From NCBI RefSeq assembly GCF_923079645.1, contig NZ_CAKLPY010000001.1:868001-932000 (forward strand): a stretch of DNA of 64,000 bases, given 5' to 3'. Below, in pieces: positions 5,849-45,373 of the stretch. The DNA is from Emticicia aquatica (lineage in GTDB: Bacteria > Bacteroidota > Bacteroidia > Cytophagales > Spirosomataceae). The notes beneath the pieces are model-generated. The model was given only the letters and a program-made list of their open reading frames with translations, was not told the origin of the DNA and did no database searches. The translations under genes were made by a program, and so were the position numbers. The stretch's first letter is position 1. Each line of letters begins with the position of its first letter.

Positions 5849-5992
5849 AAAATTTAATGTTTTTTTAAATAATAGTTTGTACTTGTTAATACGTAATAAT
5901 ATATATAATAGTGGGTCGAAATTTTATTTCTTTTAAGTTAATTTTGTTTTAATTCAAAGACGAAGCCTGATTCAAAAAGGTTGATTGAAAAT

Positions 5993-7363
5993 CTATTTCT
6001 TTTTACCTTCATCCAAAAATTTTACAAAATCTTCCACATTTGAAAAGCCAATTGGATTGACGATAGTTTTGCCATTTGCGTCAACTACGGCGTAATAAGG
6101 TTGGGCGTTATTATTAAACCTTGTAATTTCTAAGTCCATGTTTTTATCACCAATGGTGGTTTTTAACTCATCATCATAATTCGATTTGTAGTGCTTGTTG
6201 ATAGGTAATTCCTTTTTGTCATCAACATAAAGCGAAGCAATTACGAAATCTTGTTTCAAGCGAGCCAAAACTTCGGGTTTTACCCAAACATTTTCTTCCA
6301 TTTTTCGGCAATTTGCACAAGCATAACCCGTAAAATCTAGTAAAAGCGGTTTATTTACTTGTTTTGCATAAGCTAGTGCATCATCATAATCGCTAAAACC
6401 TGATAAGCCATGAGGCATCGGGCGAAGTTTCTCAGTTGGAACGCCAACAATTGCTGTGTTATTATCTTGTGGAGGTAATATTCCTGAAAGCAACTCTAGT
6501 GATTTGCCTTGAATCACTCCAGGAAGTAAGTAAGCTGTAAATGCAAAGAATAAAACACTAAAAGTGATTCTAGTCCAATGGTAGGTTTTTACTTTGGTAT
6601 CTTTTGGTAAACGGATAAATCCTGAGATATAAAGTGCAATTAATCCAAAAATAATTATCCAAAATATTAGAAAAATATTGCGATGAAGCAGGTTGAAATG
6701 ATATGCTTGGTCGATATTACTTAAAAACTTCAATGCCAACGCAAATTCAGCAAAGCCCATTACGGCTTTCATTTCGTTCATCCAACCGCCCGATTTTGGC
6801 AGACTTTTGAGCCATTGTGGAAACATTGCCAAGAGAGTAAAAACTAAGCCAAAAGGTAGTCCAAAGGCTAACATTCCCCAAAGTGGTCGCCAAACTTCAC
6901 CTTGAGCAGCCAAAATTAGCAACGAACCTACAAATGGGGCTGTGCAAGAAAATGAAACGACAACGAGTGTGAGTGCCATGAAAAAAATACCTAACCAACC
7001 GCCACTTTCTGACATTCCATCAATGCGATTGACAAATTGATGCGGTAAAACAATCTCAAAAGCACCCAAAAGAGATACACCAAAAATGATAAAAATAACG
7101 AAGAAAAGAAGATTTGGCAGCCAATGAGTACTAATAAAATTGAGAAAAGGAGCTCCAAAAGCCATCGTAACGAAGCCTATCAACGCAAAAACAAACATGA
7201 TTGAAAAACCGTAAAACATCGCTTTTCGAGAACCGTCTGTTTGTTTGGTAAAAAAACTTACGGTCATTGGCATGATTGGGTAAATACAGGGCATAAACAA
7301 ATTGGCAATTCCCGCCAAAAAAGCCACAGAAAGAAAACCGAGCAAAGACTGTTGTTCTTGCAT
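5993..7363 (-). CDS. DsbD-like thiol:disulfide interchange protein (lacks N-terminal alpha domain)
   Basis: DsbD-type proteins move reducing power across the inner membrane to periplasmic thioredoxins. This 456-residue version starts directly in the CcdA-like membrane domain, with redox cysteines C26 (NLFMPCIYP) and C140 (VVSFSCTAP) in about eight membrane helices. It ends in a thioredoxin-fold gamma domain with C349-A-N-C352 and a final region containing PYYAVVDANGKTIVNPIGF. The periplasmic alpha domain of E. coli DsbD is absent, as is usual in Bacteroidota, so a separate periplasmic partner is needed; the WCGPC protein downstream is the obvious candidate. It is the first gene of the minus-strand redox cluster. 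Confidence 0.9.
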   Translation of the reverse strand: MQEQQSLLGFLSVAFLAGIANLFMPCIYPIMPMTVSFFTKQTDGSRKAMFYGFSIMFVFALIGFVTMAFGAPFLNFISTHWLPNLLFFVIFIIFGVSLLGAFEIVLPHQFVNRIDGMSESGGWLGIFFMALTLVVVSFSCTAPFVGSLLILAAQGEVWRPLWGMLAFGLPFGLVFTLLAMFPQWLKSLPKSGGWMNEMKAVMGFAEFALALKFLSNIDQAYHFNLLHRNIFLIFWIIIFGLIALYISGFIRLPKDTKVKTYHWTRITFSVLFFAFTAYLLPGVIQGKSLELLSGILPPQDNNTAIVGVPTEKLRPMPHGLSGFSDYDDALAYAKQVNKPLLLDFTGYACANCRKMEENVWVKPEVLARLKQDFVIASLYVDDKKELPINKHYKSNYDDELKTTIGDKNMDLEITRFNNNAQPYYAVVDANGKTIVNPIGFSNVEDFVKFLDEGKKK

Positions 7364-8093: not shown

Positions 8094-8822
8094 TTATAAT
8101 TTATCAGTTTTTGCGGTTGATTTTTTACGTTTTAATGAATAATCAAAAAGGCCAATTTTAAAACCAGTATTTGCAGAAAACCCTTGATAATCAGTATTGT
8201 AACCATTTGAGTTAAAAGCTAGGCGATAATTAGCCCCGATGTGAAATTTTACAAAACGAGCCAAATTTGCTTCTGCAATAATACCAGGTTGAATAATTTT
8301 TGAAATATTTCCACTTTCATCATCATAATCAGTGTGAATCACATTTGGGTCAATTCCATCCGTTGGAAATACACCACCATCTCGGTCGCCTCTAAATGCG
8401 TGATGCTCTCCAAATTCGCCCAAACCATTCCCGCCAACGCCGATTACAAGAGGAAATGAAACATGAATAGCAGCATCAGGTTTTAATGTATATTCAAGTT
8501 TTAATCCAGCGAAAGAACCATTAATATTTGAACTTTGATTATTTCTAAAACTCCCAAATCCGGTAACCCCAACACCTAATTTTTTGTTAAACTGAAGCAT
8601 AAAAGAACCACCACCCAATGAAGTAAAACTGCCTCCTAATTGCCCATATTGATATTCTGGAGCAAAATAAATACCTAAATAATTTACTTTTAAGGAAGCT
8701 TTTTTTCCACCAAAAACAGTTCTAATCGAAGAAGTTTTTGTAGAATCCTGTCCTATTGCATTTGTCGAAATAACCAATGCCAAACTTGCTAAAAAAATAA
8801 TTAACCTGCTGAATCGTCCCAT
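8094..8822 (-). CDS. Putative outer-membrane beta-barrel protein
   Basis: 242 residues with a signal peptide (about 1-24, ending in NAIGQ). The mature part alternates short strands and Gly-rich turns (FAPEYQYGQLGGSF, KLEYTLKPDAAIHVSFPLVIGVGGNG) and resembles porin-family barrels of Bacteroidota. An acidic loop at about 135-165 (HAFRGDRDGGVF and neighbours) may face outside. It is transcribed divergently from the ECF sigma factor and separated from it by 196 bases. No specific function can be assigned. Confidence 0.6.
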   Translation of the reverse strand: MGRFSRLIIFLASLALVISTNAIGQDSTKTSSIRTVFGGKKASLKVNYLGIYFAPEYQYGQLGGSFTSLGGGSFMLQFNKKLGVGVTGFGSFRNNQSSNINGSFAGLKLEYTLKPDAAIHVSFPLVIGVGGNGLGEFGEHHAFRGDRDGGVFPTDGIDPNVIHTDYDDESGNISKIIQPGIIAEANLARFVKFHIGANYRLAFNSNGYNTDYQGFSANTGFKIGLFDYSLKRKKSTAKTDKL

Positions 8823-8851
8823 GTTATGTATATTTGTTTTATAAAATTGAT

Positions 8852-8975
8852 TTCACCCACCATTACGCTAGGCAGGCAAAAAAGGTGGGGTGAATTTTTT
8901 AAAATACTGTGGTTTAACTTATTTTTAAAAAGAGATTGAATTTTTATTCAATAATTACCCCACCATTTTTTTTTA
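8852..8975 (+). promoter_or_regulatory. Possible mutually exclusive hairpins upstream of the ECF sigma gene
   Basis: GGTGGGGT at 8884-8891 can pair exactly with ACCCCACC at 8957-8964, which is followed at once by a run of T. The same segment, extended to GGTGGGGTGAA, can instead pair with TTCACCCACC at 8852-8861. A terminator-like structure and a competing upstream pairing give an attenuator-like layout. The 65-base loop makes the long pairing weak. No transcription start is known, so this remains a hypothesis. Confidence 0.25.
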
Positions 8976-9018
8976 TTGTTCGTAATAGATTAACAAATAC
9001 CTAAAACCAATTATAATT

Positions 9019-9624
9019 TTGTTTTTTAAGAAAAAAACATTTTCAGAAGATAACCTTGAAAGCGTAATAAAGGCTTGTATTGACCAAAATAGTCAAGCCC
9101 AACGAACGCTTATCAAACTCTTTTTGGGCTATGCTAAAAGTATTTGTTCAAGGTACTCTAGCAATGAACAAGAAGTGGAGGAAATTATCAATGATGGTTT
9201 TTTGAAAATTTTCACGAATCTATCAAAATACGATACTACTCAGCCATTTAAGGCTTGGTTACGAACAATTATGGTCAATACGGCCATTGATTATTATCGA
9301 AGTAACCAAAAATATCATTTGCAAATAACGGTTGACGAAATTGAAATTACCGACTTTGATGACGACATTATAAGTCAGCTTTCGGTTGAAGAAATCATGG
9401 GGCTTGTACGTAAATTATCTCCAACTTATCGCATGGTATTTATTTTGTATGTAGTTGAAGGGTATAAACACCGAGAAATTGCCGAACGTTTGGGTATTCA
9501 AGAAGGTACTTCTAAATCGAATTTACAAGATGCACGAATAAAACTTCAAGAAATGATTAGAATACATTATCCTCATTTATTTGATATTTATGCGGTTAAA
9601 AAACATAAATTAAATGAAAACTGA
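9019..9624 (+). CDS. ECF RNA polymerase sigma factor
   Basis: A 201-residue sigma-70-family ECF factor. Region 2 (about 15-90) includes AKSICSRY, EVEEIINDGFLKIF and FKAWLRTIMVNTAIDYYR. Region 4 (about 125-180) includes LSPTYRMVFILYVVEGYKHREIAERLG and the helix-turn-helix that ends in GTSKSNLQDARIKLQ. No in-frame ATG is near the N-terminus; the first plausible start is TTG at 9019, just after in-frame stops at 8983-8988. Its stop overlaps the next gene by 11 bases, so the two are coupled. The downstream protein probably acts as its anti-sigma factor. Confidence 0.9.
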   Translation: MFFKKKTFSEDNLESVIKACIDQNSQAQRTLIKLFLGYAKSICSRYSSNEQEVEEIINDGFLKIFTNLSKYDTTQPFKAWLRTIMVNTAIDYYRSNQKYHLQITVDEIEITDFDDDIISQLSVEEIMGLVRKLSPTYRMVFILYVVEGYKHREIAERLGIQEGTSKSNLQDARIKLQEMIRIHYPHLFDIYAVKKHKLNEN

Positions 9625-11158
9625 CAAATTTGATGAAGAGTTTCGACGAAAAGTCGAGAGTTTTCACCCACCATTCCGAGATGATGAAATTGACCGAATT
9701 CAGGGTTATGTGAATCAGCACATCCCTCTGAGTATTTGGCAACGCTTTGGCCATGTATTTACTTATTCAGTAGCTACTGCCATTATCGTTTCTTTATTAA
9801 TCACCACTTTATATCAAGCGAATGAAAATAAAACTTTACTAAACAAAATTTCAAGTCTAAATAAACAATTGGAACAAAAACAAGTAATTGTAACAACTTC
9901 CAATAAGATAAATATGCCCGTAACTATCGAAAAAACGGATACAATTTATGTGCTAAAACATATAAAGAAAGAAGTCGAAGTCGCTAGCATATCTAACAAT
10001 TTTAGCGTTGAAATGACAGATATTGCTTCAACTGATGAGGCTAATTTAGTTTCAATCGAAGAGAAAAGTAGTAAAAATATCTTACCTAATTCAAAAAGAG
10101 TTTTTGCTGATAAAAATGCTTCGCCTGATACTAAATTGAAAACTGAGACACGTTCTTTAAACTTAATTGAAAATGAAAGGAAAGAAAAATTATCTTTGAA
10201 TTCTTTGAATAATACAAAAAATAAAAAATACAACGATCTGAAAAATAATAACAGAAATGTTGAAAAAACTGTACGAACAAGTAAAGCAAGTAAAAACGAT
10301 GTTACAACAGCGGATGTTTTCAAAAATGGCATTGAAAACTCAAATCAAACGGTTATTGTTTCAGAATCTCAATCCAATAAAACGCTTGAATTAGGAACAT
10401 CTGAAAATAGTAAAGTGTTGATTATAAGTGATTTGAAAAGCAAAGGTTTTGGTTTGTTCGACTTGAAATATCTCTTTGACTTATCAAATAGAAAAATCAA
10501 CTTACCTCAAGTTAGTTCATTACCAAAAAGCCGTTCGTCATTCAAATTTTCAAGTATTTCAGCTCCAAACTTAAAATATCGTGTTGGTTTAGGGGGAAAT
10601 GTTGATAATTCTCAAATAGGGTCGAGTATTCTAACAGATATTTTATTTGCAAAAAGATGGAGTTTAACAACAGGAGTAAATGTCTCTTTTCTTGGTTTTG
10701 AGCATTTTGGTGATGAGGATGATTTTAAACGAAAAACAGATAAGGATTTTAGAGAACAGCATACTGTTAATGTTCCAATTGGTAATTCGATTGAGAATAT
10801 TGAGGCACACCAAGTTTTGTTTCGAGTGCCAATTTATTTGAATTACCGTTTGCCATTCCAGAAAAATTATACAGGTTTGTTTGCAACAGGTACAGACCTA
10901 GATTTTAATCTAAAACAATTTACGTCGTATTCACATCGAAACTTTGCAATAGATGATGAACATGAAGGACTTATCGAAAAAATACCAGTTATTCCTTTTA
11001 ATAATTGGATGATTTCGACAGGAATTGAGAAAAGATGGAATCAATTTTCACTTCAAATGAGTCCTTATTTTGCTTATCAAATTAAACAAGTTTCGTACAG
11101 GAAAAATGATTTTACATTTGGTTTAAAACTAAATGGATTTTATAGAATCAGTCGATAG
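9614..11158 (+). CDS. Anti-sigma-like membrane protein with a long linker and barrel-like C-terminus
   Basis: 514 residues, with no family named confidently. It has a short cytoplasmic N-terminus (about 1-45), one membrane helix (about 49-67), a coiled-coil stretch (about 70-90, SSLNKQLEQKQ), then about 200 residues rich in Lys, Asn and Ser that look disordered. The last 200 residues (about 310-514) are strand-rich (YRVGLGGNVDNS, WSLTTGVNVSFLGF, FTFGLKLNGFYRISR) and resemble an outer-membrane barrel of the OMP_b-brl type. The overlap with the sigma factor and the N-terminal layout suggest anti-sigma function. An inner-membrane anchor joined to a barrel is topologically odd; the tail may instead be a periplasmic beta domain. 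Confidence 0.7.
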   Translation: MKTDKFDEEFRRKVESFHPPFRDDEIDRIQGYVNQHIPLSIWQRFGHVFTYSVATAIIVSLLITTLYQANENKTLLNKISSLNKQLEQKQVIVTTSNKINMPVTIEKTDTIYVLKHIKKEVEVASISNNFSVEMTDIASTDEANLVSIEEKSSKNILPNSKRVFADKNASPDTKLKTETRSLNLIENERKEKLSLNSLNNTKNKKYNDLKNNNRNVEKTVRTSKASKNDVTTADVFKNGIENSNQTVIVSESQSNKTLELGTSENSKVLIISDLKSKGFGLFDLKYLFDLSNRKINLPQVSSLPKSRSSFKFSSISAPNLKYRVGLGGNVDNSQIGSSILTDILFAKRWSLTTGVNVSFLGFEHFGDEDDFKRKTDKDFREQHTVNVPIGNSIENIEAHQVLFRVPIYLNYRLPFQKNYTGLFATGTDLDFNLKQFTSYSHRNFAIDDEHEGLIEKIPVIPFNNWMISTGIEKRWNQFSLQMSPYFAYQIKQVSYRKNDFTFGLKLNGFYRISR

Positions 11159-11292
11159 ATGCAAAAATTTTAAGCATAATAAAAGATAAACTTGAATATA
11201 GAGGAAATGAAGAATAGTTTTTAAAATCAGTATAAAATGTTAATTTTGAGCAATTTGATTTTCTAAACAAAACCTATTTCAAAATATTAACT

Positions 11293-11829
11293 ATGAAACA
11301 GAATCAAAATTTAGCTCAAACCACTTTTTTGTTTTTGTGCTTTTTGATTGGTACAATTTCAACATCATTTGCTCAATACGGTGGTTATGGCGGTGGATAT
11401 GGAGGATACGGTGGCTATGGCAGCGGTTATGGTCGTGGCTATGGTAATCAGTTTAATAATCCAAGCTTTGATAACGGAAAACCCAAACCTCCACCAGACC
11501 CTGATGAAGTTGCTAAAGAAGAGACTAGGATAATGGTAAAAAAGCTAAAATTGAATGAAGAACAAGAAATTATTATTTCTTCACTCAATGAAGATTATGC
11601 CTATCAACGTAAAGATTTATATGAGTTGATTAAAAAAGATTTTGGAAATTCACAGCCAACTCCTGCTCAAATTGATAATGCCAAAGAAAAAATGGCTGCT
11701 TTAGAAACTAAAAAAGATAAAGAGCTACAAAAAATTCTAACAGAAGAACAATTTGAAACATACCAGGAAATGAAAGCTAAAAATCAAAAAGGAGCAAAAG
11801 GCGGAAAAGGGAAAGAGGTTAAACAATAA
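11293..11829 (+). CDS. Spy/CpxP-like periplasmic protein with a Gly-Tyr-rich segment
   Basis: 178 residues with a signal peptide (about 1-28, ending SFAQ). A Gly-Tyr-rich tract of about 24 residues (YGGYGGGYGG type) comes next, then a Pro-rich spacer. The helical region (about 80-160) contains KLNEEQEIIISSLNEDY and LTEEQFETYQEM, reminiscent of the LTxxQ motifs of Spy/CpxP chaperone-like proteins. The C-terminus is very basic (Lys/Gly). It lies downstream of the sigma/anti-sigma pair and may be part of the envelope-stress regulon of that sigma factor (inference). Confidence 0.65.
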   Translation: MKQNQNLAQTTFLFLCFLIGTISTSFAQYGGYGGGYGGYGGYGSGYGRGYGNQFNNPSFDNGKPKPPPDPDEVAKEETRIMVKKLKLNEEQEIIISSLNEDYAYQRKDLYELIKKDFGNSQPTPAQIDNAKEKMAALETKKDKELQKILTEEQFETYQEMKAKNQKGAKGGKGKEVKQ

Positions 11830-11933
11830 AATTAAATCAAATGCTTAATCTTGCATATTAGAGTTTTACCTTGATTTCCTATTCGGTAAAATATCTAGTA
11901 CAATATAAGCGTTTATTTGTTTTATTTGTATTG

Positions 11934-12692
11934 GTGAAAAAAAAGCAATTTAACATAGCTATCATTTATAAATTTAAAAAAGCGGTCATCTACTGCTTTT
12001 TTTTGATGCTTTTATGTTCGGAAGTTTTCGCACAAATCAATGATTCTGTACTCGTCAAACAGCCTGATACACTTCGTGCTAGATTAAGTTATGCAATCAA
12101 TTGGGATGCTCGAAGCTCAATTATAAAAGCTAAAAATGTTAATATTTGGGGAGTGAATTCTGGAATAATTATCGGAAAAAAGCGTAACCAAATTACTTTA
12201 GGCTACTATTGGCTTAATCTGAATTCTTATTTGCGATTGCTAGATTTGCGAAAAAGTGCAGCCAAAAGAGTAAATATTGATTATTATACCAAAACTGATA
12301 TTTATTTCTTTAGTTTAATGTACTGGAAAAATTTTGTTAATAATCGAAATTGGCAATTGAGTGTACCGATTGAAGTGGGTATTGGAGCAACAAAAAACCA
12401 AGGAGTTGGATTATTCGACGAAATCCAAATCTGGAAACGCAAAGATTATTTTATCCCAATTCAAGTTGGTCTTTATGTTGGCTGGAAAGCAACTCGCTGG
12501 GGTGGGTTGTCAGTGCAAGGTGGTTATCGTTATGCTTTGTTAGAAAAAAATATCCCCGATAGTTATAATGGACTTTATTATAGTGTTGGATTAAATGTTC
12601 GTCTTGCATTAATAACTGACATCTATCATTGGGTATTCAATAATAAATCGCCAAAAAAAATTATTAACGAATGGCATTTACGAAAATTATAA
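11934..12692 (+). CDS. Putative exported outer-membrane protein
   Basis: About 252 residues from a GTG at 11934; the frame is open back to a TTG at 11871, and the first ATG is at 12006. The GTG start gives an unusually long signal peptide ending in SEVFAQ; the ATG would leave only a stub, so the start is uncertain. The mature part is strand-rich with many aromatic residues (NQITLGYYWLNLNSYL, YFIPIQVGLYVGWKATRW, GLYYSVGLNVRLAL), as in small outer-membrane barrels. It is 104 bases or fewer after the Spy-like gene and might be cotranscribed. No family recognised. Confidence 0.6.
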   Translation: MKKKQFNIAIIYKFKKAVIYCFFLMLLCSEVFAQINDSVLVKQPDTLRARLSYAINWDARSSIIKAKNVNIWGVNSGIIIGKKRNQITLGYYWLNLNSYLRLLDLRKSAAKRVNIDYYTKTDIYFFSLMYWKNFVNNRNWQLSVPIEVGIGATKNQGVGLFDEIQIWKRKDYFIPIQVGLYVGWKATRWGGLSVQGGYRYALLEKNIPDSYNGLYYSVGLNVRLALITDIYHWVFNNKSPKKIINEWHLRKL

Positions 12693-12698
12693 TATTAC

Positions 12699-12730
12699 TT
12701 GGTTTTAAAGTAAATTTATTTTTATATTTG
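12699..12730 (+). promoter_or_regulatory. Bacteroidota-type promoter P1
   Basis: TTG at 12699-12701 and TATATTTG at 12723-12730, separated by 21 bases, match the TTG-N17-23-TAnnTTTG consensus of Bacteroidota housekeeping promoters. The predicted start is near 12737, with no coding gene immediately downstream. Confidence 0.5.
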
Positions 12731-12762
12731 TCCATTCAATAACAAAAAAATAAAGAAAATAC

Positions 12763-12794
12763 TTGTAACAACATATAATTTTGTTTTATCTTTG
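12763..12794 (+). promoter_or_regulatory. Bacteroidota-type promoter P2
   Basis: TTG at 12763-12765 and TATCTTTG at 12787-12794 with a 21-base spacer match the same consensus exactly. The predicted start near 12801 would give an RNA of about 150 nt ending at the terminator at 12920-12952. Confidence 0.5.
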
Positions 12795-12888
12795 AACCAA
12801 AATTAAAAACGCAAAATTTTTAGCATTTCAATGCAACCTTTTGCAAATTTCAATCGTCATCTATCATAGAATATAAAAAATATTAAAG

Positions 12889-12952
12889 ATAAAAGTTGTG
12901 TGGATTTAGTAGCGGGAAAGGCTGGGGTTATTTACTCCAGTCCTTTTTTTTT
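12889..12952 (+). ncRNA. Candidate small RNA unit 1
   Basis: An 18-base word (ATAAAAGTTGTGTGGATT, 12889-12906) is followed after 13 bases by a GC-rich hairpin (12920-12927 with 12935-12942, two G-U pairs) and nine T residues. The same word plus hairpin recurs 134 bases downstream. The only overlapping open frame is short and has no protein-like features. It lies in a 477-base gap between coding genes, downstream of two consensus promoters. It is called a candidate RNA because word and terminator are conserved together. Confidence 0.4.
12920..12952 (+). terminator. Rho-independent terminator of unit 1
   Basis: An 8-bp stem with two G-U pairs (GGCTGGGG with CTCCAGTC), a 7-base loop, then C and nine T residues: a classic intrinsic terminator. 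Confidence 0.75.
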
Positions 12953-13022
12953 GTATTATTTTCAAATAAATCGTGAATTTAGAGCTAAATCTATTTTAGA
13001 GATAATATATTATAGTTTTTTC

Positions 13023-13080
13023 ATAAAAGTTGTGTGGATTCAATTAATAAAGGCTGGGCATTTTGACCCAGTCTTTTTTT
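13023..13080 (+). ncRNA. Candidate small RNA unit 2
   Basis: Second copy of the 18-base word (13023-13040) followed after 10 bases by an 8-bp hairpin (13051-13058 with 13067-13074) and a T run. I see no exact TAnnTTTG box just upstream, so it may be read through from unit 1 or use a weaker promoter. It ends 90 bases before the AraC start. Confidence 0.4.
13051..13080 (+). terminator. Rho-independent terminator of unit 2
   Basis: Stem AGGCTGGG with CCCAGTCT, loop of eight bases, followed by six further T residues. The stem differs from that of unit 1 by changes that keep pairing. Confidence 0.75.
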
Positions 13081-13099
13081 AATCAATGTTTTTCTTAAA

Positions 13100-13127
13100 T
13101 TTGTTGTTCAGTTGACTTATACTTTTG
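13100..13127 (+). promoter_or_regulatory. Probable promoter of the AraC gene
   Basis: TTTG at 13100-13103 and TACTTTTG at 13120-13127, with a 16-base spacer just below the usual range. The predicted start near 13134 gives a leader of about 36 bases to the TTG start codon at 13170. Confidence 0.4.
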
Positions 13128-13169
13128 CAAATTATTGCATAATTTGATTCATAAAACCGACTTTATTAA

Positions 13170-14048
13170 TTGTTTAAAATCTATCAAATAGCTGATTTTC
13201 TAGATACAACAAAGAAAAATATTCAGTTTCATATCAATAAACTGGAAGGAACTCCACCTGCAAAAAATATTATTAGACCTCATAAACATCAATTTTATGA
13301 GGTCTTCTTGGTAAAAAGAGGTTTGATTAAACAAAGTGTTGATTATAAAGAATTTGAGATAAAAGGCACTACTTTATTTTTTATTTCTCAAGGCCAACTT
13401 CATCAATGGGAACGAAATAATGAAGTTTTTGAAGGATATCGATTAATGTTTACCGAAGAGTTTTTGTTACTTGGGCAACCGAATAAAAACATTCTTTTTG
13501 AGTTAATTTATTTAGATAATCTGTATCACAATCCTTACCTTGAACTTACGGAAAAGAATGCAAGCCAAATCATTGCTTGTTTTGAATTATTATTAGAAGA
13601 GTTTCAGCTGCAAGATGCTCGTGAAGATGCGTTGAGTTCGCTCGTTTTTGTTCTTTTGGTGAAAATCCAACGTCTTTTTAATGCTTATGAATCAAACCAA
13701 TCTTCAAAACATCAAATTGTTGTTTATAAACAATTTATATATCTAATTGAAAAACATTTAACTGAAAATCTTTCGCCTAGTGATTATGCTGAAAAATTGT
13801 CTATTTCACCTCGACATTTGAACCGAATTGTTCAAAATGTTGCAAATCAAAGTGTTACAGATATTATTCAACAAAGAACAGTCTTAGAAGCGAAACGCCT
13901 TTTGAGTTATACAAATTTAACCATTGGCCAAATTACTGATCAATTGGGTTTTGAAGATACATCTTATTTCTCTAGGTATTTCCGAAAGATTACTCACTGC
14001 TCACCCTCTGATTTTCGGAACCAAATGACCGAAAAATACCTAAATTAG
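13170..14048 (+). CDS. AraC-family transcriptional regulator (aromatic operon)
   Basis: A 292-residue regulator with an N-terminal cupin-like sensor domain (about 20-120: RPHKHQFYEVFLVKRG, SQGQLHQWERN) and a C-terminal AraC double helix-turn-helix (about 190-288: LSPSDYAEKLSISPRHLNRI, then TIGQITDQLGFEDTSYFSRYFRK and CSPSDFRN). No ATG lies near the N-terminus; TTG at 13170 is the likely start. It lies 90 bases upstream of the transporter and catabolic genes on the same strand, so it probably activates them in response to the aromatic substrate or an intermediate (inference). Confidence 0.9.
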   Translation: MFKIYQIADFLDTTKKNIQFHINKLEGTPPAKNIIRPHKHQFYEVFLVKRGLIKQSVDYKEFEIKGTTLFFISQGQLHQWERNNEVFEGYRLMFTEEFLLLGQPNKNILFELIYLDNLYHNPYLELTEKNASQIIACFELLLEEFQLQDAREDALSSLVFVLLVKIQRLFNAYESNQSSKHQIVVYKQFIYLIEKHLTENLSPSDYAEKLSISPRHLNRIVQNVANQSVTDIIQQRTVLEAKRLLSYTNLTIGQITDQLGFEDTSYFSRYFRKITHCSPSDFRNQMTEKYLN

Positions 14049-14066
14049 CCTTAATTATCCTACCAA

Positions 14067-14092
14067 TTTGGATTGATAAATAAATAGATTTG
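14067..14092 (+). promoter_or_regulatory. Possible promoter of the gal-type operon
   Basis: TTTG at 14067-14070 and an exact TAGATTTG box at 14085-14092. The 14-base spacer is shorter than usual, which would suit an activator-dependent promoter. The predicted start is near 14099, 40 bases before the transporter ATG. Confidence 0.35.
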
Positions 14093-14138
14093 TAATTATC
14101 TAATCTAAACTTATTTATAACTGTCTATTCAATCAATA

Positions 14139-15428
14139 ATGATTAATAATCTACATTTGAGTAGTATTTTGAAAAACCATAATACTACTATATTCGTATG
14201 CTTCCTAATGAATATGCTCGACGGAATGGATGTGATGGTGATTTCTTATACTGCACCTTCGCTTGCAAAAGAATGGGATGTTAGCCCCGAAATGTTAGGT
14301 CTTATATTTAGTACTGGATTATTTGGAATGGCCATTGGAGGGATTTTTTTAGCTCCTTTTGCAGACCAAATTGGCCGACGACGCACAATTATTATTTCGG
14401 CATTAATTATGGGAATCAGTGTTTTTTTGACCTGTTTTTGCCAAATTGTTGAACATTTATTGATTTTACGTTTCATAAGTGGACTAGGAATAGGCAGTAT
14501 GCTGGCTAGTACAGCCACATTAACAGCCGAATTCGCACCCAAAAAAACCAAAGATTTTTGGGTTAGTTTTGTTATGGCTGGTTATCCATTAGGTGCTGTT
14601 TTTACAGGTCTGTTAACTGCGGCAATTATTCCGATTTATGGTTGGAAAATGGCTTTTACAATATCAGGAATCATTACTTTTTGTGCTTTGCCCTTAATAT
14701 ATTTTTTCTTAGCCGAGTCTGAAGATTACTTATCAAAAGTTGAGATTAAGAAGGTAATAAAAGAAGCAAAGGAGGTGCTAGAAAAACTGCCTCCTGAGGC
14801 CCATGAGCTTTTGCCTCCATTTCCCAAAGTAACAATTGTTAAAAACTCAGTTTCTTCAATTTTATCAAATTCGTTTAGAAAAAAAACAATTTTACTTTGG
14901 GCTGCCATTTTTATGGCTTTCGCTACGCTTTATTTCTTGACTAGCTGGATTCCAAAATTAGCTACGACTGCTGGCTTATCGGTTTCATTAGCAATCTATG
15001 CTGGAACTGTATTTAATGTAGGAGCTTTCTCAGGAATAATCGTACAAGGGTACTTATCTGCAAAATTTGGTTTACGAAAAATCATTTTTTTATTTCTCAT
15101 AACTACAGCCAGTTTAATGGCAATGTTTGGGTTTTTCAAAGGCTCAGATTTTATTTTAGTTCTTTTTGGATTGATAGGTTTTGGGATTCAGGGGGGATTT
15201 GTAGGCTTGTATTCGGTGGCTGTTCGCCTTTATCCGACAGAAGTGAGAGCAACGGGTGTGGGTTGGGCAGTTGGTTTGGGAAGAACGGGGGCAATCGTCG
15301 GGCCAATTATTGGAGGGATATTCATCGCAGCAGGGTATTCAATGGCTATCAATTTTTTTCTATTTTCAATACCACTCATTATTAGTGGATTAGCAACGCT
15401 TAATATTCAATTTTCCGATTCAAAATAA
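14139..15428 (+). CDS. MFS aromatic acid:H+ symporter (AAHS family)
   Basis: A 429-residue, 12-helix transporter. Helix 1 carries the DGMDVMV motif corresponding to the acidic DGxD of PcaK/GalT/BenK-type aromatic acid symporters. The loop after helix 2 has ADQIGRRRTIII, the MFS signature, and the second-half helices include VRLYPTEVRATGVGWAVGLGR (in two halves), also typical of the AAHS family. It is the first structural gene of the aromatic operon, 4 bases before the dioxygenase, as galT is linked to gallate catabolic genes in pseudomonads. The substrate is probably gallate, protocatechuate or a similar hydroxybenzoate; sequence alone does not decide. Confidence 0.88.
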   Translation: MINNLHLSSILKNHNTTIFVCFLMNMLDGMDVMVISYTAPSLAKEWDVSPEMLGLIFSTGLFGMAIGGIFLAPFADQIGRRRTIIISALIMGISVFLTCFCQIVEHLLILRFISGLGIGSMLASTATLTAEFAPKKTKDFWVSFVMAGYPLGAVFTGLLTAAIIPIYGWKMAFTISGIITFCALPLIYFFLAESEDYLSKVEIKKVIKEAKEVLEKLPPEAHELLPPFPKVTIVKNSVSSILSNSFRKKTILLWAAIFMAFATLYFLTSWIPKLATTAGLSVSLAIYAGTVFNVGAFSGIIVQGYLSAKFGLRKIIFLFLITTASLMAMFGFFKGSDFILVLFGLIGFGIQGGFVGLYSVAVRLYPTEVRATGVGWAVGLGRTGAIVGPIIGGIFIAAGYSMAINFFLFSIPLIISGLATLNIQFSDSK

Positions 15429-15432
15429 ACTT

Positions 15433-16401
15433 ATGCAAGCAACCATTTGGGATTTGGCTCATGTAGCCCATGTAGAATTATTTACGCCAAAATTAGAAGA
15501 AAGTACTCGTTTTTTTACTGAAATTATGGGTATGTCTATTAGCGACGTAAAGAATGATTCGGTTTATTTACGAGCGTACGACGATTACGAACATCATACA
15601 TTAAAGTTAACGGCTCATAAACACGCTGGAATGAAGCATTTTGCTTGGCGAGCCAAAAGTCAGGAAGCTTTGATGAGGAGAGTGGCTGCAATCGAAAAAT
15701 CTGGTTATGGAATTGGTTGGAATGATGGCGATTTGGGTCACGGGCCAGCTTACACTTTTCAATCGCCGAGTGGTCATTTGACCGAAATTTATTTTGAAAC
15801 TGAAAAATATAAAGCGGTTGGTAGTAATATTTCAGCCTTAAAAAATACGGCAAGCAAATTTCCTGCAAGAGGAATAAACGTTCGTCGTATTGATCATTTG
15901 AATCTTTTTGCTAAAGATGTTCGAGCTTTTAGGGATTTCCAGATGGAGAATTTAGGCGGAATTTTAACCGAAACAATAGTTGATAATGCTATTGATTTGA
16001 ATCCAAAAGCTGTTTGGTTTTTAGTGAATTCAAAATCTTATGATTTGGCAGTTACCGAAGACCATTTGGGAATGAATAACCGATTTCATCATGTAACTTA
16101 TGCGGTCAATAGCCGTGAAGAAGTATTAATTGCTGCCGATATTTGCCTCGAAAATGGGATTTTTATTGAAACGGGTCCTCATAAACATACAATTCAACAA
16201 ACGTTTTTTCTGTATGTGTATGAACCAGGAGGAAATCGGATTGAAATTGCTAATACTACCGCAAGATTAGTGCTTGACCCAGATTATGAAACCATCGTTT
16301 GGACACAAGAAGAACGCAAAAAAGGGCAGGCTTGGGGGTTGGCAACTGTTAGTAGTTTTCATACGAAAGGAACACCAATGCCAGAAGAATTGATAGATTA
16401 A
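15433..16401 (+). CDS. VOC-superfamily (type I) extradiol ring-cleavage dioxygenase
   Basis: A 322-residue two-domain VOC protein like catechol 2,3-dioxygenase. The catalytic C-terminal module has the metal triad H155 (RIDHLNLF), H219 or H220 (RFHHVTYAV) and E271 (GGNRIEIANT). H250 (TGPHKHT) and Y261 (FFLYVYEPGG) match second-sphere residues of the family. Where catechol 2,3-dioxygenases usually have the His of a KAHD motif, this protein has Y203 (SKSYDLAV). In the operon it takes the place of a ring-cleavage enzyme before GalB-, GalC- and GalD-like genes, which suggests a carboxylated trihydroxy- or dihydroxybenzene as substrate (inference). An Fe(II) extradiol dioxygenase is the best call; a non-cleaving VOC enzyme is possible. 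Confidence 0.82.
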   Translation: MQATIWDLAHVAHVELFTPKLEESTRFFTEIMGMSISDVKNDSVYLRAYDDYEHHTLKLTAHKHAGMKHFAWRAKSQEALMRRVAAIEKSGYGIGWNDGDLGHGPAYTFQSPSGHLTEIYFETEKYKAVGSNISALKNTASKFPARGINVRRIDHLNLFAKDVRAFRDFQMENLGGILTETIVDNAIDLNPKAVWFLVNSKSYDLAVTEDHLGMNNRFHHVTYAVNSREEVLIAADICLENGIFIETGPHKHTIQQTFFLYVYEPGGNRIEIANTTARLVLDPDYETIVWTQEERKKGQAWGLATVSSFHTKGTPMPEELID

Positions 16402-16416
16402 AAAAAGTAAAAAACT

Positions 16417-17136
16417 ATGAAAAAGAAACTTTTAGTTATTGGAGCCCATTCGGGAGATTTTGTTTGGCGTTCGGCTGGAACAATCGCCAAGGCGATAGAA
16501 GAAGGAGCGGAGACTTTAGTTATCGCAATGTCGTACGGCGAGCGTGGCGAGTCTGGTGAACTTTGGAAAGAAAATCCAAATCGGACAGAAGAAAGTGTCA
16601 AAATCATTCGCCATGAACAAGCTCAAAAAGCTGCTGATGTCATTGGTACACCGATTCGTTTTTTGGACTGGGGTGATTATCCAATGATTATTTCTGACCA
16701 AAGAATTGAACAATTAACCGAAATTATTGGTGATTTTGAGCCAACTGTTATTTTGACTCATTCCGAAAAAGACCCTTTTAATCCTGACCATCCATTGGCT
16801 TTTCAAGCTACTCAACGTGCAAGATTATTGTCAAGTGGTGCAGGTGTGCCAAGTGCTTTCAAAAATATCGACCCACCTGCATGGTATTCTTTCGAGCCTC
16901 ATCAGCCCGAATTATCTAGTTTTATTCCTGATACTTTTATTGATATCAGCTCTGTAATTGATAAAAAAATGGATGCAATGGCCTGTATGGGAGCTCAAAA
17001 TTATTTGAAAGATTATTATGCCGAATTAGCTTCCCGAAGAGCAAATCATGCAAGACGTATTTCGGGTAAAAAAAATATCAAATTTGCCGAAGCCTTTCAA
17101 AGTCAAGTGCCGAGGGTAACGAATACGATTTTTTAA
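16417..17136 (+). CDS. galB: 4-oxalomesaconate hydratase, GalB-like (PIG-L fold)
   Basis: 239 residues of the LmbE/PIG-L fold. The usual deacetylase motif AHPDD is replaced by GAHSGDFVWRSAGTI, which closely resembles the AHSADFVWR start of Pseudomonas GalB, the hydratase that converts 4-oxalomesaconate to 4-carboxy-4-hydroxy-2-oxoadipate. Other features are SYGERGESGELW (about 40-51) and THSEKDPFNPDHPLAF, with zinc-binding histidines. The adjacent GalC- and GalD-like genes support hydratase rather than deacetylase function. It follows the dioxygenase by 15 bases and precedes the aldolase by 9. Confidence 0.85.
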   Translation: MKKKLLVIGAHSGDFVWRSAGTIAKAIEEGAETLVIAMSYGERGESGELWKENPNRTEESVKIIRHEQAQKAADVIGTPIRFLDWGDYPMIISDQRIEQLTEIIGDFEPTVILTHSEKDPFNPDHPLAFQATQRARLLSSGAGVPSAFKNIDPPAWYSFEPHQPELSSFIPDTFIDISSVIDKKMDAMACMGAQNYLKDYYAELASRRANHARRISGKKNIKFAEAFQSQVPRVTNTIF

Positions 17137-17145
17137 TATAAAAAA

Positions 17146-17775
17146 ATGAATATAAGTAAAGAATTGATTGCAGAAATCAGTCGGTTTTCGACAGCGACAT
17201 TGCACGAGGCGATGGGTAAAACAGGAAATTTGCCTTCGGGAATAAAACCAATTAGTCCAAAAATGAAAGTTTGCGGACCAGCATACACCGTAAAAACGAT
17301 GCCTTGTGATAATATGCTGCTTCACAGAGCTTATGCTTACGCAAAATCAGGTGATGTTTTGGTTGTTAATTGTTCAAATTTTTACGAAGCTGGGTATTGG
17401 GGAGATTTGATGAGTTTAGGTGCAAAAACCAAAGGAATTGCTGGTTTAGTGATCGATGGTTGTGTGCGAGATGCTGATGATATTGAAACGATGGGTTTTC
17501 CTGTTTTTAGTCGTGGTTTGTGCATAAAAGGTACTGGAAATCAGGGAGAAGGAACACTTAACGAACCAATTATCATGGGTGAATATATCGTAAATCCAGG
17601 CGATATAATCGTTGGTGATAGAGATGGAGTAGTGGTGATTCCACAAAATAAAGTAGAAGGAACAATTGAAAAAGCCATTGCCAGAGAAGCAAAAGAGGAA
17701 CGTACTAGAGCAGAATTGAGAAAAGGAAGAAATTCTTTGCAAATCTATGGTTGGGACGAAAAATATGGTTACTAA
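17146..17775 (+). CDS. galC: 4-carboxy-4-hydroxy-2-oxoadipate aldolase, GalC/RraA-like
   Basis: A 209-residue class II pyruvate aldolase of the HMG/CHA (LigK/GalC) family, related to RraA. The substrate/metal motif GLVIDGCVRDADDI (about 101-114) has the conserved Arg-Asp pair, and VNPGDIIVGDRDGVVVI (about 149-165) is the aldolase signature. It would cleave CHA to pyruvate and oxaloacetate, the last step of the gallate and protocatechuate 4,5-cleavage routes. The neighbouring GalB/GalD homologues make this much more likely than the RNase E regulator RraA. 10 bases separate it from the chosen start of the next gene. Confidence 0.87.
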   Translation: MNISKELIAEISRFSTATLHEAMGKTGNLPSGIKPISPKMKVCGPAYTVKTMPCDNMLLHRAYAYAKSGDVLVVNCSNFYEAGYWGDLMSLGAKTKGIAGLVIDGCVRDADDIETMGFPVFSRGLCIKGTGNQGEGTLNEPIIMGEYIVNPGDIIVGDRDGVVVIPQNKVEGTIEKAIAREAKEERTRAELRKGRNSLQIYGWDEKYGY

Positions 17776-17785
17776 TTTCAAAAAT

Positions 17786-18556
17786 ATGAATGATAATTTA
17801 ACAATTGCCATTTTAGGTCTTGGCGAAGCAGGCTCACATTTTGCCAATGATTTGGCGGATTTGGGCGTGAAAATTATAGGTTTTGACCCAAATCCGAAAA
17901 GAGTTTTACATCCAACCATTGAGATGAAGTCGAGCAATTTGGAAGCCGCTCGAGAAGCAACTATTATTTTTAGTGTCAATCTTTCTTCAGTTTCAGAGGA
18001 AGTAGCTCGTGAAGTTTTTCCTGTTTTAGATGCGTCAAAGATTTATTTAGAAATGAATACGTCTTCTCCTGATAAGAAAATTGCGATTTTTGAAATGATA
18101 AAATCTACTTGTGTAAAATATGTTGATTTGGCCATCATGGCTCCAGTTCCACCAAAAGGCATTAAAACGCCCTTTTTGGCTTCTGGTAATGGAGCTAAAA
18201 CTTTTCAAGAAAAAGTAGCCGATTTAGGTTTGGATATCACAGTTTTGAGCGAAGAAGTTGGCGAAGCTTCTACCAGAAAATTGTTACGGTCAATCGTTTA
18301 TAAAGGTGTGGCAGCGGTTATCTGCGAAGCCATGGAAGCAGGTCGAAAATATGATTTAGAAAGCTACATTCGTGAACAAATTAGTTCAGTAATTGGTGGA
18401 AATGATGGTTTAATAGACCGTTTTGTTGAAGGAAGCAAAACGCATGCCCTTAGAAGAATGCACGAAATGGAAGCAGTTGTTGAAATGCTTGAAAATCAAG
18501 GAATCGACCCAATTGTATCAAAAGCTGCACGCCAAAATTTAGAAAAATTATTATAA
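17786..18556 (+). CDS. NAD(P)-binding 3-hydroxyacid-dehydrogenase-like protein (DUF1932 C-terminus)
   Basis: A 256-residue protein of the 6-phosphogluconate/3-hydroxyisobutyrate dehydrogenase superfamily. The Rossmann motif is AILGLGEAGSHFAND (about 7-21), and the C-terminal helical part resembles DUF1932. The catalytic region includes YVDLAIMAPVPPKG and, later, TRKLLRSIVYKGV, where a lysine of the family (K near 166) lies. The start at 17786 is preferred because the Rossmann strand follows at once; an ATG at 17747 would overlap the aldolase. No step of the gallate pathway needs this activity. It may process a side substrate or its product, or reduce or oxidise an intermediate of a variant route. 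It is 4 bases before the tautomerase gene. Confidence 0.8.
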   Translation: MNDNLTIAILGLGEAGSHFANDLADLGVKIIGFDPNPKRVLHPTIEMKSSNLEAAREATIIFSVNLSSVSEEVAREVFPVLDASKIYLEMNTSSPDKKIAIFEMIKSTCVKYVDLAIMAPVPPKGIKTPFLASGNGAKTFQEKVADLGLDITVLSEEVGEASTRKLLRSIVYKGVAAVICEAMEAGRKYDLESYIREQISSVIGGNDGLIDRFVEGSKTHALRRMHEMEAVVEMLENQGIDPIVSKAARQNLEKLL

Positions 18557-18560
18557 AAAA

Positions 18561-19649
18561 ATGCAAAAAGCTATTCCATTTATGCAAATTCGAGGAGGAA
18601 GCTCCAAAGGTTTGTTTTTCAATGCCTTAGATTTACCTATCGACGAAGATTTACGCAATAAAGTTATTTTAGCAGCAATGGAAGGCGTTGGTTTGGGTGA
18701 TAAACGCCAAATAGATGGTTTAGGTGGAGCGAATTCTTTGACGAGTAAAGTTGCTATTGTTAGCCGCTCAACTAATAAAAATGCTGACCTTGATTATTTA
18801 TTCATTCAGGTTGTACTCGGAAAAGGGGTTGTTTCGACGGTACAAAATTGTGGAAATATCCTTGCGGGGGTTTTGCCATTTGCCATAGAATCTGGTATGA
18901 TTAAAGCTAATAATCCAACTACGGCTGCCAGAATAAATATGATCAATACGGGTGGAATTTGTGAAGTAATTGTCCAAACGCCTGATTTTGAAGTAGAATA
19001 TGCAGGAAATGCCAGCGTTGACGGAGTTTTGGGAACGGCTGCCCCGATTGTCTGTAATTATCTTGATATTGAAGGCTCGACTTGTGGAGCATTATTGCCT
19101 ACTGGAAATATAATTGATATTGTTGATGGTATCGAATTGACTTGCATTGATAATGGAATGCCTTTGGTTGTGATGCGAGCAACTGATTTTGGAATAACGG
19201 GCTACGAATCTAAGGAAGAATTGGATAACAATGAAGAACTCAAAACTCGTATCGAAAATATTCGATTAGCAGTTGGTCAAAAGATGAATCTTGGTGATGT
19301 CAACAATCAAACAATACCCAAAATGTGTTTAATTTCACCTGCTAAAAATGGTGGTTCAATCAATACACGAATGTTTATTCCACACGTTTGTCACGAAGCA
19401 ATTGGCGTTTTGGCCGCCATTTCAGTGGCAACTTGTAGTTTATTGCCTCATTCGATTGCAAGCGGGATAGCTAATTTCTCTGATGAAAATAAATTACTAT
19501 CAATTGAACATCCAGCTGGAGAAATGTCTATTTCAATAAATTATTCATTTGAAAATGACAAATTAATTATTAAAAAATCAGGTTTAATTCGCACTGCAAG
19601 ATTATTAAGTAGAGGTGAAGTTTTTATCCCGAAATCAGTTTGGATTTAA
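18561..19649 (+). CDS. galD: 4-oxalomesaconate tautomerase, GalD-like (PrpF family)
   Basis: A 362-residue PrpF-family protein. N-terminal MQIRGGSSKGLFF (about 8-20) matches the MRGGTSKG signature of GalD/PrpF, and the second half has the NGGSINTRMFIPHVCH block (about 266-281). The fold is the diaminopimelate epimerase-like one. In gallate catabolism GalD isomerises the keto form of 4-oxalomesaconate to the enol used by GalB. A 2-methylaconitate isomerase role is less likely because no methylcitrate genes are nearby. It is the last gene of the operon. Confidence 0.85.
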   Translation: MQKAIPFMQIRGGSSKGLFFNALDLPIDEDLRNKVILAAMEGVGLGDKRQIDGLGGANSLTSKVAIVSRSTNKNADLDYLFIQVVLGKGVVSTVQNCGNILAGVLPFAIESGMIKANNPTTAARINMINTGGICEVIVQTPDFEVEYAGNASVDGVLGTAAPIVCNYLDIEGSTCGALLPTGNIIDIVDGIELTCIDNGMPLVVMRATDFGITGYESKEELDNNEELKTRIENIRLAVGQKMNLGDVNNQTIPKMCLISPAKNGGSINTRMFIPHVCHEAIGVLAAISVATCSLLPHSIASGIANFSDENKLLSIEHPAGEMSISINYSFENDKLIIKKSGLIRTARLLSRGEVFIPKSVWI

Positions 19650-23213: not shown

Positions 23214-24032
23214 ATGAAAAAGAAGAACATTATTAGTCTTTCGGTGGCATTTGCATTTTTAGCTTTATCAATTACTGGAGTTTTGCTTTACATCAAGCAA
23301 AAAGCTCACGCTGTTGAAATGACGCACACAATCTTTGGCTTAATCTTCGTTGGTTTTGCTATTTTTCACATAGTTAACAACTGGTCTTCGATAACTGGCT
23401 ACTCAAAAGAGCGAAAAAGTGGTAAATTTCAAAAAGAATTTATTATCGCAGGAATTGCTTTTTTAGTGATTTTAGCTGGAGCTATAACCGAATTGCTAGA
23501 ACCAGTGGCAGAAGCGGGTCGAATTTTTGCTGGGAAAAGACCACCAAGACCAGAGCAATTAACTTTTAGTGAAGTTAAAACTAATAATGATGTAAAAGGA
23601 ACCGCTTTGACGATTTTGCTGGAAAAAACAAAAGAAACCGAACTGCCAGTTACAGCGATTTGGGTAGAAGATTCTGCACATAATTTTGTGGAAAACTTAT
23701 TTGTTCCTGCCAAAATTGCTGCGATACCAGCTGATGAAGAAGAAGCCCGTGAAGGTCATTTTGATATTTCTGATTTTAAAGCTGAAACATTAACGGTTTG
23801 GTCAGGGAAAGCAAAAGTAAAAACTGCTAATTTTGAGCAAGAAACACCACATGATAACTTCGTGTTAAAAACAAATACAACTTCAATAGGTCAGTTTTTT
23901 ATTCTTTTAGAAGTAAAAAGTGGCAATAAAACTGAAGTTTACGAAGCATCTGTTGACAAAGCAAAAGGTGATGTTTTTAAGTTGAAATCTAAGGAAAATG
24001 GTCTTATTGCTCGCGGTTTAGTTGAGTTATAA
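23214..24032 (+). CDS. DUF4405-like membrane protein with a DUF2271-like periplasmic tail
   Basis: 272 residues. The N-terminus has three membrane helices (about 5-27, 38-57 and 76-94), with histidines H38 and H54 (EMTHTIFGLIFV, IFHIVNNW) spaced as in DUF4405 haem-binding proteins. From about 115 a soluble part begins (TALTILLEKTKETELPVTAIW, then VEDSAHNFVENLFVP) that resembles DUF2271, a periplasmic domain often linked to flavin- or haem-based electron transfer. If correct, the protein is a natural fusion of an inner-membrane cytochrome-like anchor and a periplasmic domain. I see no clear DxxSGAT flavin-attachment motif. It lies 68 bases after the FG-GAP gene, same strand. Confidence 0.6.
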   Translation: MKKKNIISLSVAFAFLALSITGVLLYIKQKAHAVEMTHTIFGLIFVGFAIFHIVNNWSSITGYSKERKSGKFQKEFIIAGIAFLVILAGAITELLEPVAEAGRIFAGKRPPRPEQLTFSEVKTNNDVKGTALTILLEKTKETELPVTAIWVEDSAHNFVENLFVPAKIAAIPADEEEAREGHFDISDFKAETLTVWSGKAKVKTANFEQETPHDNFVLKTNTTSIGQFFILLEVKSGNKTEVYEASVDKAKGDVFKLKSKENGLIARGLVEL

Positions 24033-42664: not shown

Positions 42665-42667
42665 TTT

Positions 42668-44287: not shown

Positions 44288-44369
44288 TTTCTGAAATAGC
44301 TATTTTAAACAAATTTAAACATTAATTACATAAAATTATCTAAAATAACTCCCCTTTAGGTATAGAGGG

Positions 44370-45371: not shown

Positions 45372-45373
45372 AA

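Follow-up and report, generated by a model that had tools for sequence, protein, structure and literature searches.

The gallate ring-cleaving enzymes described so far in the sources cited here are of the LigB fold (PMC4250580, PMC12314914). AromaDeg does not list gallate among the substrates of type I extradiol dioxygenases and places the gallate dioxygenases in the LigB superfamily (PMC4250580), while a paper from 2025 that deals with the routes for syringate and gallate gives DesB and GalA as the gallate dioxygenases (PMC12314914). As gallate carries a hydroxyl on the cleaved carbon, its cleavage yields the acid 4-oxalomesaconate (OMA) directly (PMC8431788, PMC12314914). In Emticicia aquatica, a stretch of 64,000 nt on contig NZ_CAKLPY010000001.1 (the window, whose coordinates are used below unless a contig is named) holds a seven-gene operon in which a two-domain VOC protein stands among genes of the OMA route. 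This operon probably imports and degrades gallate, and the VOC protein would then be a type I gallate dioxygenase that replaces the non-homologous LigB-type GalA/DesB. The literature searched yielded no paper on a VOC gallate dioxygenase, but it covers subscription journals thinly and is thus weak evidence of absence. Nothing on point was found there for OMA genes with a VOC enzyme, syringate in Arthrobacter or Microbacterium, gallate in walnut Agrobacterium, DUF1932, or 9wgj, the solved chain closest to the VOC protein in the Protein Data Bank (PDB); PMC12343579 (Kocuria) does not treat gallate cleavage.

Operon and active site of the VOC protein

All seven genes are encoded on the plus strand between 13170 and 19649:

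13170..14048, +, AraC-family regulator, distantly HpaA-like, with a TTG start (PF12833, 84.9 bits)
14139..15428, +, aromatic acid/H+ symport (AAHS) MFS transporter, proposed gallate importer (TIGR00895, 348.9 bits, under the cut-off of 418.55)
15433..16401, +, two-domain VOC (type I extradiol) dioxygenase, proposed gallate dioxygenase (TIGR03211, clade, signature, and fold)
16417..17136, +, GalB-like 4-oxalomesaconate/CHM hydratase of the PIG-L family (PF02585; 5cgz)
17146..17775, +, GalC/LigK-like 4-carboxy-4-hydroxy-2-oxoadipate aldolase of the RraA family (NF006731)
17765..18556, +, DUF1932 NAD-binding protein with a beta-hydroxyacid-dehydrogenase fold (PF09130, PF03446; start at 17747, 17765, or 17789)
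18561..19649, +, GalD 4-oxalomesaconate tautomerase of the PrpF family (NF033377)

The tautomerase (GalD/LigU), the aldolase (GalC/LigK), and the PIG-L hydratase by which an OMA lower pathway is recognized are all predicted in this operon. GalD passed the curated 4-oxalomesaconate tautomerase model NF033377 with 489.8 bits (cut-off 440), and GalC passed the aldolase model NF006731 with 202.5 bits (cut-off 179), while it scored 188.3 bits against the stricter TIGR02798 (ligK_PcmE), under its cut-off of 304.5. The GalB-like protein, which had no curated cut-off model among its matches, found its best PDB match in the 4-oxalomesaconate hydratase 5cgz (209.8 bits, E 3.5e-61, nearly full length). 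A pyrone/PDC hydrolase, a CHMOD methylesterase, an amidohydrolase, and a second ring-cleaving gene were not found in the operon.

A preliminary description, made from the letters of this stretch, had listed these seven genes on one strand and in these families, and all of them were recovered where it had placed them. Its two-domain VOC protein is matched by two PF00903 hits (15463-15789 and 15886-16248), and its GalB-like label agrees with the match to 5cgz. The gaps of 4-15 bases that it gave between the structural genes were also measured: the distances of AraC-AAHS, AAHS-VOC, VOC-GalB, GalB-GalC, and DUF1932-GalD are 90, 4, 15, 9, and 4 bases, respectively, while GalC and DUF1932 are 13 bases apart with the start at 17789 and overlap with the start at 17747 or 17765. 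Its remark that LigI and LigC are not seen holds for the operon, with the reservation that the DUF1932 protein is itself a dehydrogenase.

The VOC protein had no match to the LigB domain (PF02900). It scored 309 bits against the catechol 2,3-dioxygenase model TIGR03211, just under the cut-off of 320.2, and 195.6 bits against the homoprotocatechuate 2,3-dioxygenase model TIGR02295 (HpaD), under the cut-off of 321.4. The AlphaFold model (pLDDT 80) matched type I enzymes over the whole length of the protein, with Z of 39.2 for 3lm4, 38.4 for AphC, 35.6 for XylE, and 32.6 for the homoprotocatechuate 2,3-dioxygenase HPCD. The following positions, all taken from alignment, make up its active site:

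15895..15897, +, metal ligand His155 (HPCD His155)
16039..16041, +, Tyr203, at the second-sphere His200 position of HPCD
16090..16092, +, metal ligand His220 (HPCD His214)
16186..16188, +, His252 (HPCD His248), second sphere, kept
16213..16215, +, Tyr261 (HPCD Tyr257), second sphere, kept
16243..16245, +, metal ligand Glu271 (HPCD Glu267)

The 2-His-1-carboxylate site in the C-terminal domain is thus intact, and its ligands as well as His248 and Tyr257 (HPCD numbering, also below) are invariant across the clade of close relatives. All 37 clade members, as well as 9wgj, have Tyr at position 200, while eight of the nine outgroup rows carry His and one carries Ile. Together with Gln/Asn251, Thr253, and Thr/Ser243 (Arg243 in HPCD), Tyr200 forms the signature of the clade. 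In HPCD, His200 contributes to the activation of O2 and to acid-base catalysis, while the carboxylate of the substrate is bound by Arg243 and Arg293. Variants of His200 in that enzyme have been made and their structures solved, 4z6l and others being among the fold matches; a natural Tyr at this position is, to our knowledge, unusual. The His200-to-Tyr change would lower the probability of a standard extradiol mechanism, not that of a type I fold.

Phylogeny, linkage, and co-occurrence

A scan of 84,980 species genomes yielded 27 VOC relatives, with identities of 72-88% in Bacteroidota, 59% in Pararhizobium, and 52-54% in Actinomycetota (Arthrobacter, Microbacterium, Agromyces, and Tersicoccus). 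Further relatives, at 55-62% identity, came from plasmid records of Thermus oshimai, Methylobacterium, Roseomonas, Pantoea, Chimaeribacter, Agrobacterium, Pararhizobium, and Thioclava. Below these, identity stepped down to 42.5% for the Thermus thermophilus HB8 enzyme and 40% for the Rhodococcus alkylcatechol enzyme, followed by the HpaD and XylE types. In a maximum-likelihood tree with nine catechol, alkylcatechol, and homoprotocatechuate-type rows as the outgroup, the 37 clade members occupied one side of a branch with a support of 80/73, which became 100/99 with 9wgj grouped into the clade. 9wgj is the nearest solved chain to the VOC protein (313 bits) and has both Tyr200 and Thr253. By sequence, the clade is distinct from the known catechol and homoprotocatechuate dioxygenases.

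GalB, GalC/LigK, or GalD occurred nearby in 32 of 36 clade loci, and all three in 22 of them; the tie of the clade to OMA genes spans Bacteroidota, Actinomycetota, Proteobacteria, and Thermus. The order of the genes is VOC-GalB-GalC-DUF1932-GalD in Bacteroidota, GalB-GalC-GalD-VOC in the Arthrobacter relatives, and GalB-VOC-GalC-GalD in Agrobacterium, Pararhizobium, and Thioclava, while in Pantoea the VOC gene is separate from GalB-GalC-GalD-DUF1932. With such differing orders, the association has been reassembled on several occasions, an argument for a functional link. Recurring in at least three phyla with differing orders, the gene set and its linkage are more than chance. The upstream genes also recur in part. 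Counterparts of the AAHS transporter (47-59% identical) lie directly upstream of the VOC gene in nine relative loci, L015 among them, and elsewhere within the same cluster in the Saprospiraceae locus L014; counterparts of the AraC regulator, 44-49% identical, are present in the clusters of L014 and L015. The regulator itself scored 123.9 bits against TIGR02297 (HpaA), under the cut-off of 274.65.

Co-occurrence across genomes followed the same line. Among 194 genomes of the host's order, the VOC protein (E below 1e-60) and GalD were found in the same five genomes of three genera, an overlap with a chance of 4.6e-10 if genomes are taken as independent, a figure that kinship inflates. In the family of Arthrobacter sp. 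B6 (197 genomes), 32 genomes carried the VOC protein and 31 of these also a GalD homologue scoring 269 bits or more, while the 165 VOC-free genomes had no GalD match over 210 bits (Fisher P 2e-35, with the bit threshold picked after the gap was seen and P inflated by kinship). The pattern is alike in the two phyla. Measured against the protein of Arthrobacter sp. B6, the VOC proteins of the latter family fall into groups of about 90% and of 61-76% identity; GalD is encoded far from VOC in some of them, and the groups may differ in substrate.

The reading that the VOC protein is an ordinary catechol 2,3-dioxygenase, lying among gallate genes by accident, is very improbable in the face of these data. 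The near-threshold score against TIGR03211 is in its favor, as is the label "catechol 2,3-dioxygenase" that RefSeq gives to some clade relatives. It is opposed by the repeated linkage and the near-perfect co-occurrence with GalD, and by the catechol, alkylcatechol, and homoprotocatechuate types forming a separate group, nearly all with His200, whose sampled loci mostly hold dmpG and acetaldehyde dehydrogenase, or hpa genes.

A LigB-type gallate dioxygenase was searched for elsewhere in the host genome. The single LigB-family (PF02900) protein there was a 4,5-DOPA-extradiol dioxygenase (NF007914, 273 bits, cut-off 233), encoded in an unrelated neighborhood. As the assembly is 94% complete, this is not proof by itself. 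Twelve of 25 genomes with this VOC enzyme, a set that includes some same or near-identical assemblies reached by two routes, have no LigB-family protein, and the LigB proteins of the remaining ones are mostly open frames of about 300 residues, similar in length to the DOPA dioxygenase of the host.

The preliminary description had proposed that a type I enzyme performs the ring opening and had named a LigB gallate dioxygenase elsewhere in the genome as evidence to the contrary; only the DOPA enzyme came to light. The phylogeny against type I enzymes that it called for separated the clade from the catechol, alkylcatechol, and homoprotocatechuate types. Taken together, clade, linkage, co-occurrence, and the lack of a detected LigB gallate dioxygenase lend strong support to a predicted ring opening by a type I (VOC) enzyme in a pathway of the gallate type.

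Substrate and proposed route

The neighbors of the clade genes point to gallate. On the plasmid pAt of a walnut Agrobacterium, GalB-VOC-GalC-GalD is followed by a tannase (PF07519, 437.9 bits). The Arthrobacter cluster contains two LigM vanillate/3-O-methylgallate O-demethylases (909.5 and 853.5 bits, cut-off 580) as well as an MTHFR-like protein and an aldehyde dehydrogenase, a set as expected for the conversion of syringate to gallate, and LigM also flanks two further VOC clusters. Several Bacteroidota carry a COesterase or BD-FAE hydrolase in or beside the VOC cluster. In the host, a COesterase gene on contig 2 (320522-322171) lies beside further esterase-like genes, its product being 73% identical to one inside the Runella gallate cluster; it is a candidate galloyl esterase.

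The host also has a protocatechuate 3,4-dioxygenase (TIGR02422, 303.7 bits, cut-off 296.4). Because of this enzyme, and with an operon that lacks a pyrone hydrolase, protocatechuate is unlikely as the substrate. The beta-type gene lies on contig 1 (588218-588763), where it is accompanied by another intradiol-like gene and by an AraC-type regulator of its own.

In the route proposed here, gallate would be taken up by the AAHS transporter under the regulation of the AraC protein. The substrate, regiochemistry, product, and metal of the VOC enzyme are predictions. It would hold Fe(II) or Mn(II) through His155, His220, and Glu271, bind two adjacent hydroxyls of gallate and O2, and break the bond that leads to the third carbon bearing a hydroxyl (4,5-cleavage). 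This would yield 4-oxalomesaconate directly, and the route would need no semialdehyde dehydrogenase and no pyrone hydrolase. GalD would then tautomerize and GalB hydrate this compound, while GalC would split the hydrated product into pyruvate and oxaloacetate. The bond broken in gallate lies between two hydroxylated carbons, so that its cleavage is extradiol with respect to one pair of hydroxyls and intradiol with respect to the second. In a bolder reading, which we hold to be less likely than not, the clade would consist of type I gallate dioxygenases that have lost the acid-base His and use Tyr instead; they may exploit this geometry to open the ring by a mechanism unlike that of known type I enzymes, and would have evolved apart from the LigB gallate dioxygenases.

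Several observations weigh against gallate cleavage by this clade. Its branch support without 9wgj is the lower of the two values given above, and the PDB entry 9wgj bears the name "catechol 1,2-dioxygenase". At four of the clade loci, no close OMA gene lies within 8 kb. The esterases near the Bacteroidota clusters belong to generic families and are only suggestive, and the PF07519 tannase was not found in the host genome in a search that had no positive control. The relative in Thermus oshimai lies beside a 4-hydroxybenzoate 3-monooxygenase, and those in Roseomonas and Methylobacterium beside Amidohydro_2 proteins, which belong to the LigI superfamily. These neighbors suggest that some clade members act on protocatechuate, and the enzymes of these three genera may have other or broader substrates. 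Finally, a route for gallate alone has no place for the DUF1932 dehydrogenase, as the conversion of gallate to pyruvate and oxaloacetate needs no redox step.

The last points lend some weight to a reading in which protocatechuate, alone or along with gallate, undergoes 4,5-cleavage by the VOC enzyme, DUF1932 acts as LigC on the semialdehyde, and a further hydrolase opens the pyrone before GalD, GalB, and GalC. The retention of the dehydrogenase in the operon and in most relatives fits this reading. We nevertheless hold it to be unlikely, given the host's own protocatechuate 3,4-dioxygenase and an operon without an amidohydrolase; a homologue of the Roseomonas LigI-like amidohydrolase was not found in the host genome either, again with no positive control. 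Furthermore, a DUF1932-like protein is also present in a LigAB-type cluster, next to a Gfo/Idh oxidoreductase that this cluster already has.

The DUF1932 protein was modeled with a pLDDT of 91, and its best fold match was 3qsg (Z 28.0), the search returning only uncharacterized relatives and generic beta-hydroxyacid dehydrogenases. Its gene accompanies OMA genes across phyla. A role as a partner specific to the VOC enzyme was considered and rejected, as the gene also lies in a GalBCD cluster of Sodalis with no VOC gene in view, and a more distant relative occurs in a Sphingobium LigAB cluster. Since it is found widely with OMA genes, including in LigAB clusters or without VOC in view, DUF1932 belongs to OMA pathways in general, of which it is a candidate missing piece. 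That it oxidizes the semialdehyde from protocatechuate cleavage, or repairs a side product, are guesses.

The LigM-type O-demethylases adjoining VOC in the Arthrobacter-family clusters indicate that methylated gallates are around, and 3-O-methylgallate or another O-methylated trihydroxybenzoate could be the substrate, giving a methyl ester or pyrone that joins the OMA route, with gallate as a secondary substrate. This is improbable, as LigM would turn 3-O-methylgallate into gallate ahead of cleavage, the operon has neither of the hydrolases (CHMOD methylesterase or pyrone hydrolase) that such products call for, and no O-demethylase is in view in the Bacteroidota and Agrobacterium clusters. The preliminary description had left the choice between another fold recruited to gallate and a different substrate; the tannase and LigM neighbors and the protocatechuate 3,4-dioxygenase of the host favor gallate, with 3-O-methylgallate or dual specificity as lesser possibilities.

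Flanking features and comparison with known systems

Two signals precede the operon:

13050..13079, +, terminator-like hairpin and T run, read from the sequence
13100..13127, +, candidate Bacteroidota-type promoter TTTG-N16-TACTTTTG, upstream of the AraC gene, read from the sequence

The promoter is a candidate only, as its spacing is shorter than that of the scanned pattern; the spaced Bacteroidota promoter pattern, scanned across the window, occurred at a frequency no higher than chance. In the Saprospiraceae cluster L014 (3682-7561), homologues of three window genes (the AraC gene, a sigma-factor-like one at 9019, and another at 8094) lie near the VOC gene, hinting at a larger block (window 8094-14048) common to both. 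Downstream of the operon, a membrane protein (23214-24032) has a counterpart just upstream of AAHS in Flavobacterium sp. SUN052 (5991-6698 of that locus), with 45% identity over 123 residues. On the minus strand, the proline-racemase-like, DapA-like, D-amino-acid-oxidase-like, and class V aminotransferase-like genes at 40231-46279 resemble, by eye only, a hydroxyproline catabolic cluster.

If true, gallate cleavage by this VOC enzyme would be a clear non-homologous replacement within a central tannin and lignin pathway. It would correct the RefSeq label on relatives across several phyla and provide the ring opening that is missing where Bacteroidota and Arthrobacter relatives use gallate and syringate. 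The clade also offers a natural His200-to-Tyr family for probing the role of that residue in extradiol catalysis.

The closest whole pathway is that of Pseudomonas putida KT2440 (GalT, GalA, GalB, GalC, and GalD), with which the host operon shares the transporter, hydratase, aldolase, and tautomerase families and the OMA route. They differ in the ring opening, which in KT2440 is performed by the LigB-type GalA and in the host would fall to the type I VOC enzyme, in the regulator (GalR in KT2440, AraC in the host), and in the extra DUF1932 dehydrogenase of the host. DesB, LigAB, and DesZ of Sphingobium sp. SYK-6 belong to the LigB superfamily and share the proposed reaction from gallate to 4-oxalomesaconate, whereas the host VOC protein is of a different superfamily and fold.

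By fold and sequence, the alkylcatechol 2,3-dioxygenase AphC (7q2a, 3lm4) and the Thermus thermophilus catechol 2,3-dioxygenase are the nearest named type I enzymes, AphC being 36% identical to the VOC protein over the fold alignment. Both keep His200 and stand, in the loci sampled, with dmpG and acetaldehyde dehydrogenase, while the host clade has Tyr200 and OMA genes. HPCD shares the fold, metal ligands, His248, and Tyr257 at about 27% identity, while the VOC protein has Tyr, Thr, and Gly where HPCD has His200, Arg243, and Arg293. From these gene and protein comparisons, the operon appears to be a known pathway in which the ring-opening enzyme was swapped for a non-homologous one, and the same swap appears to recur in several phyla.

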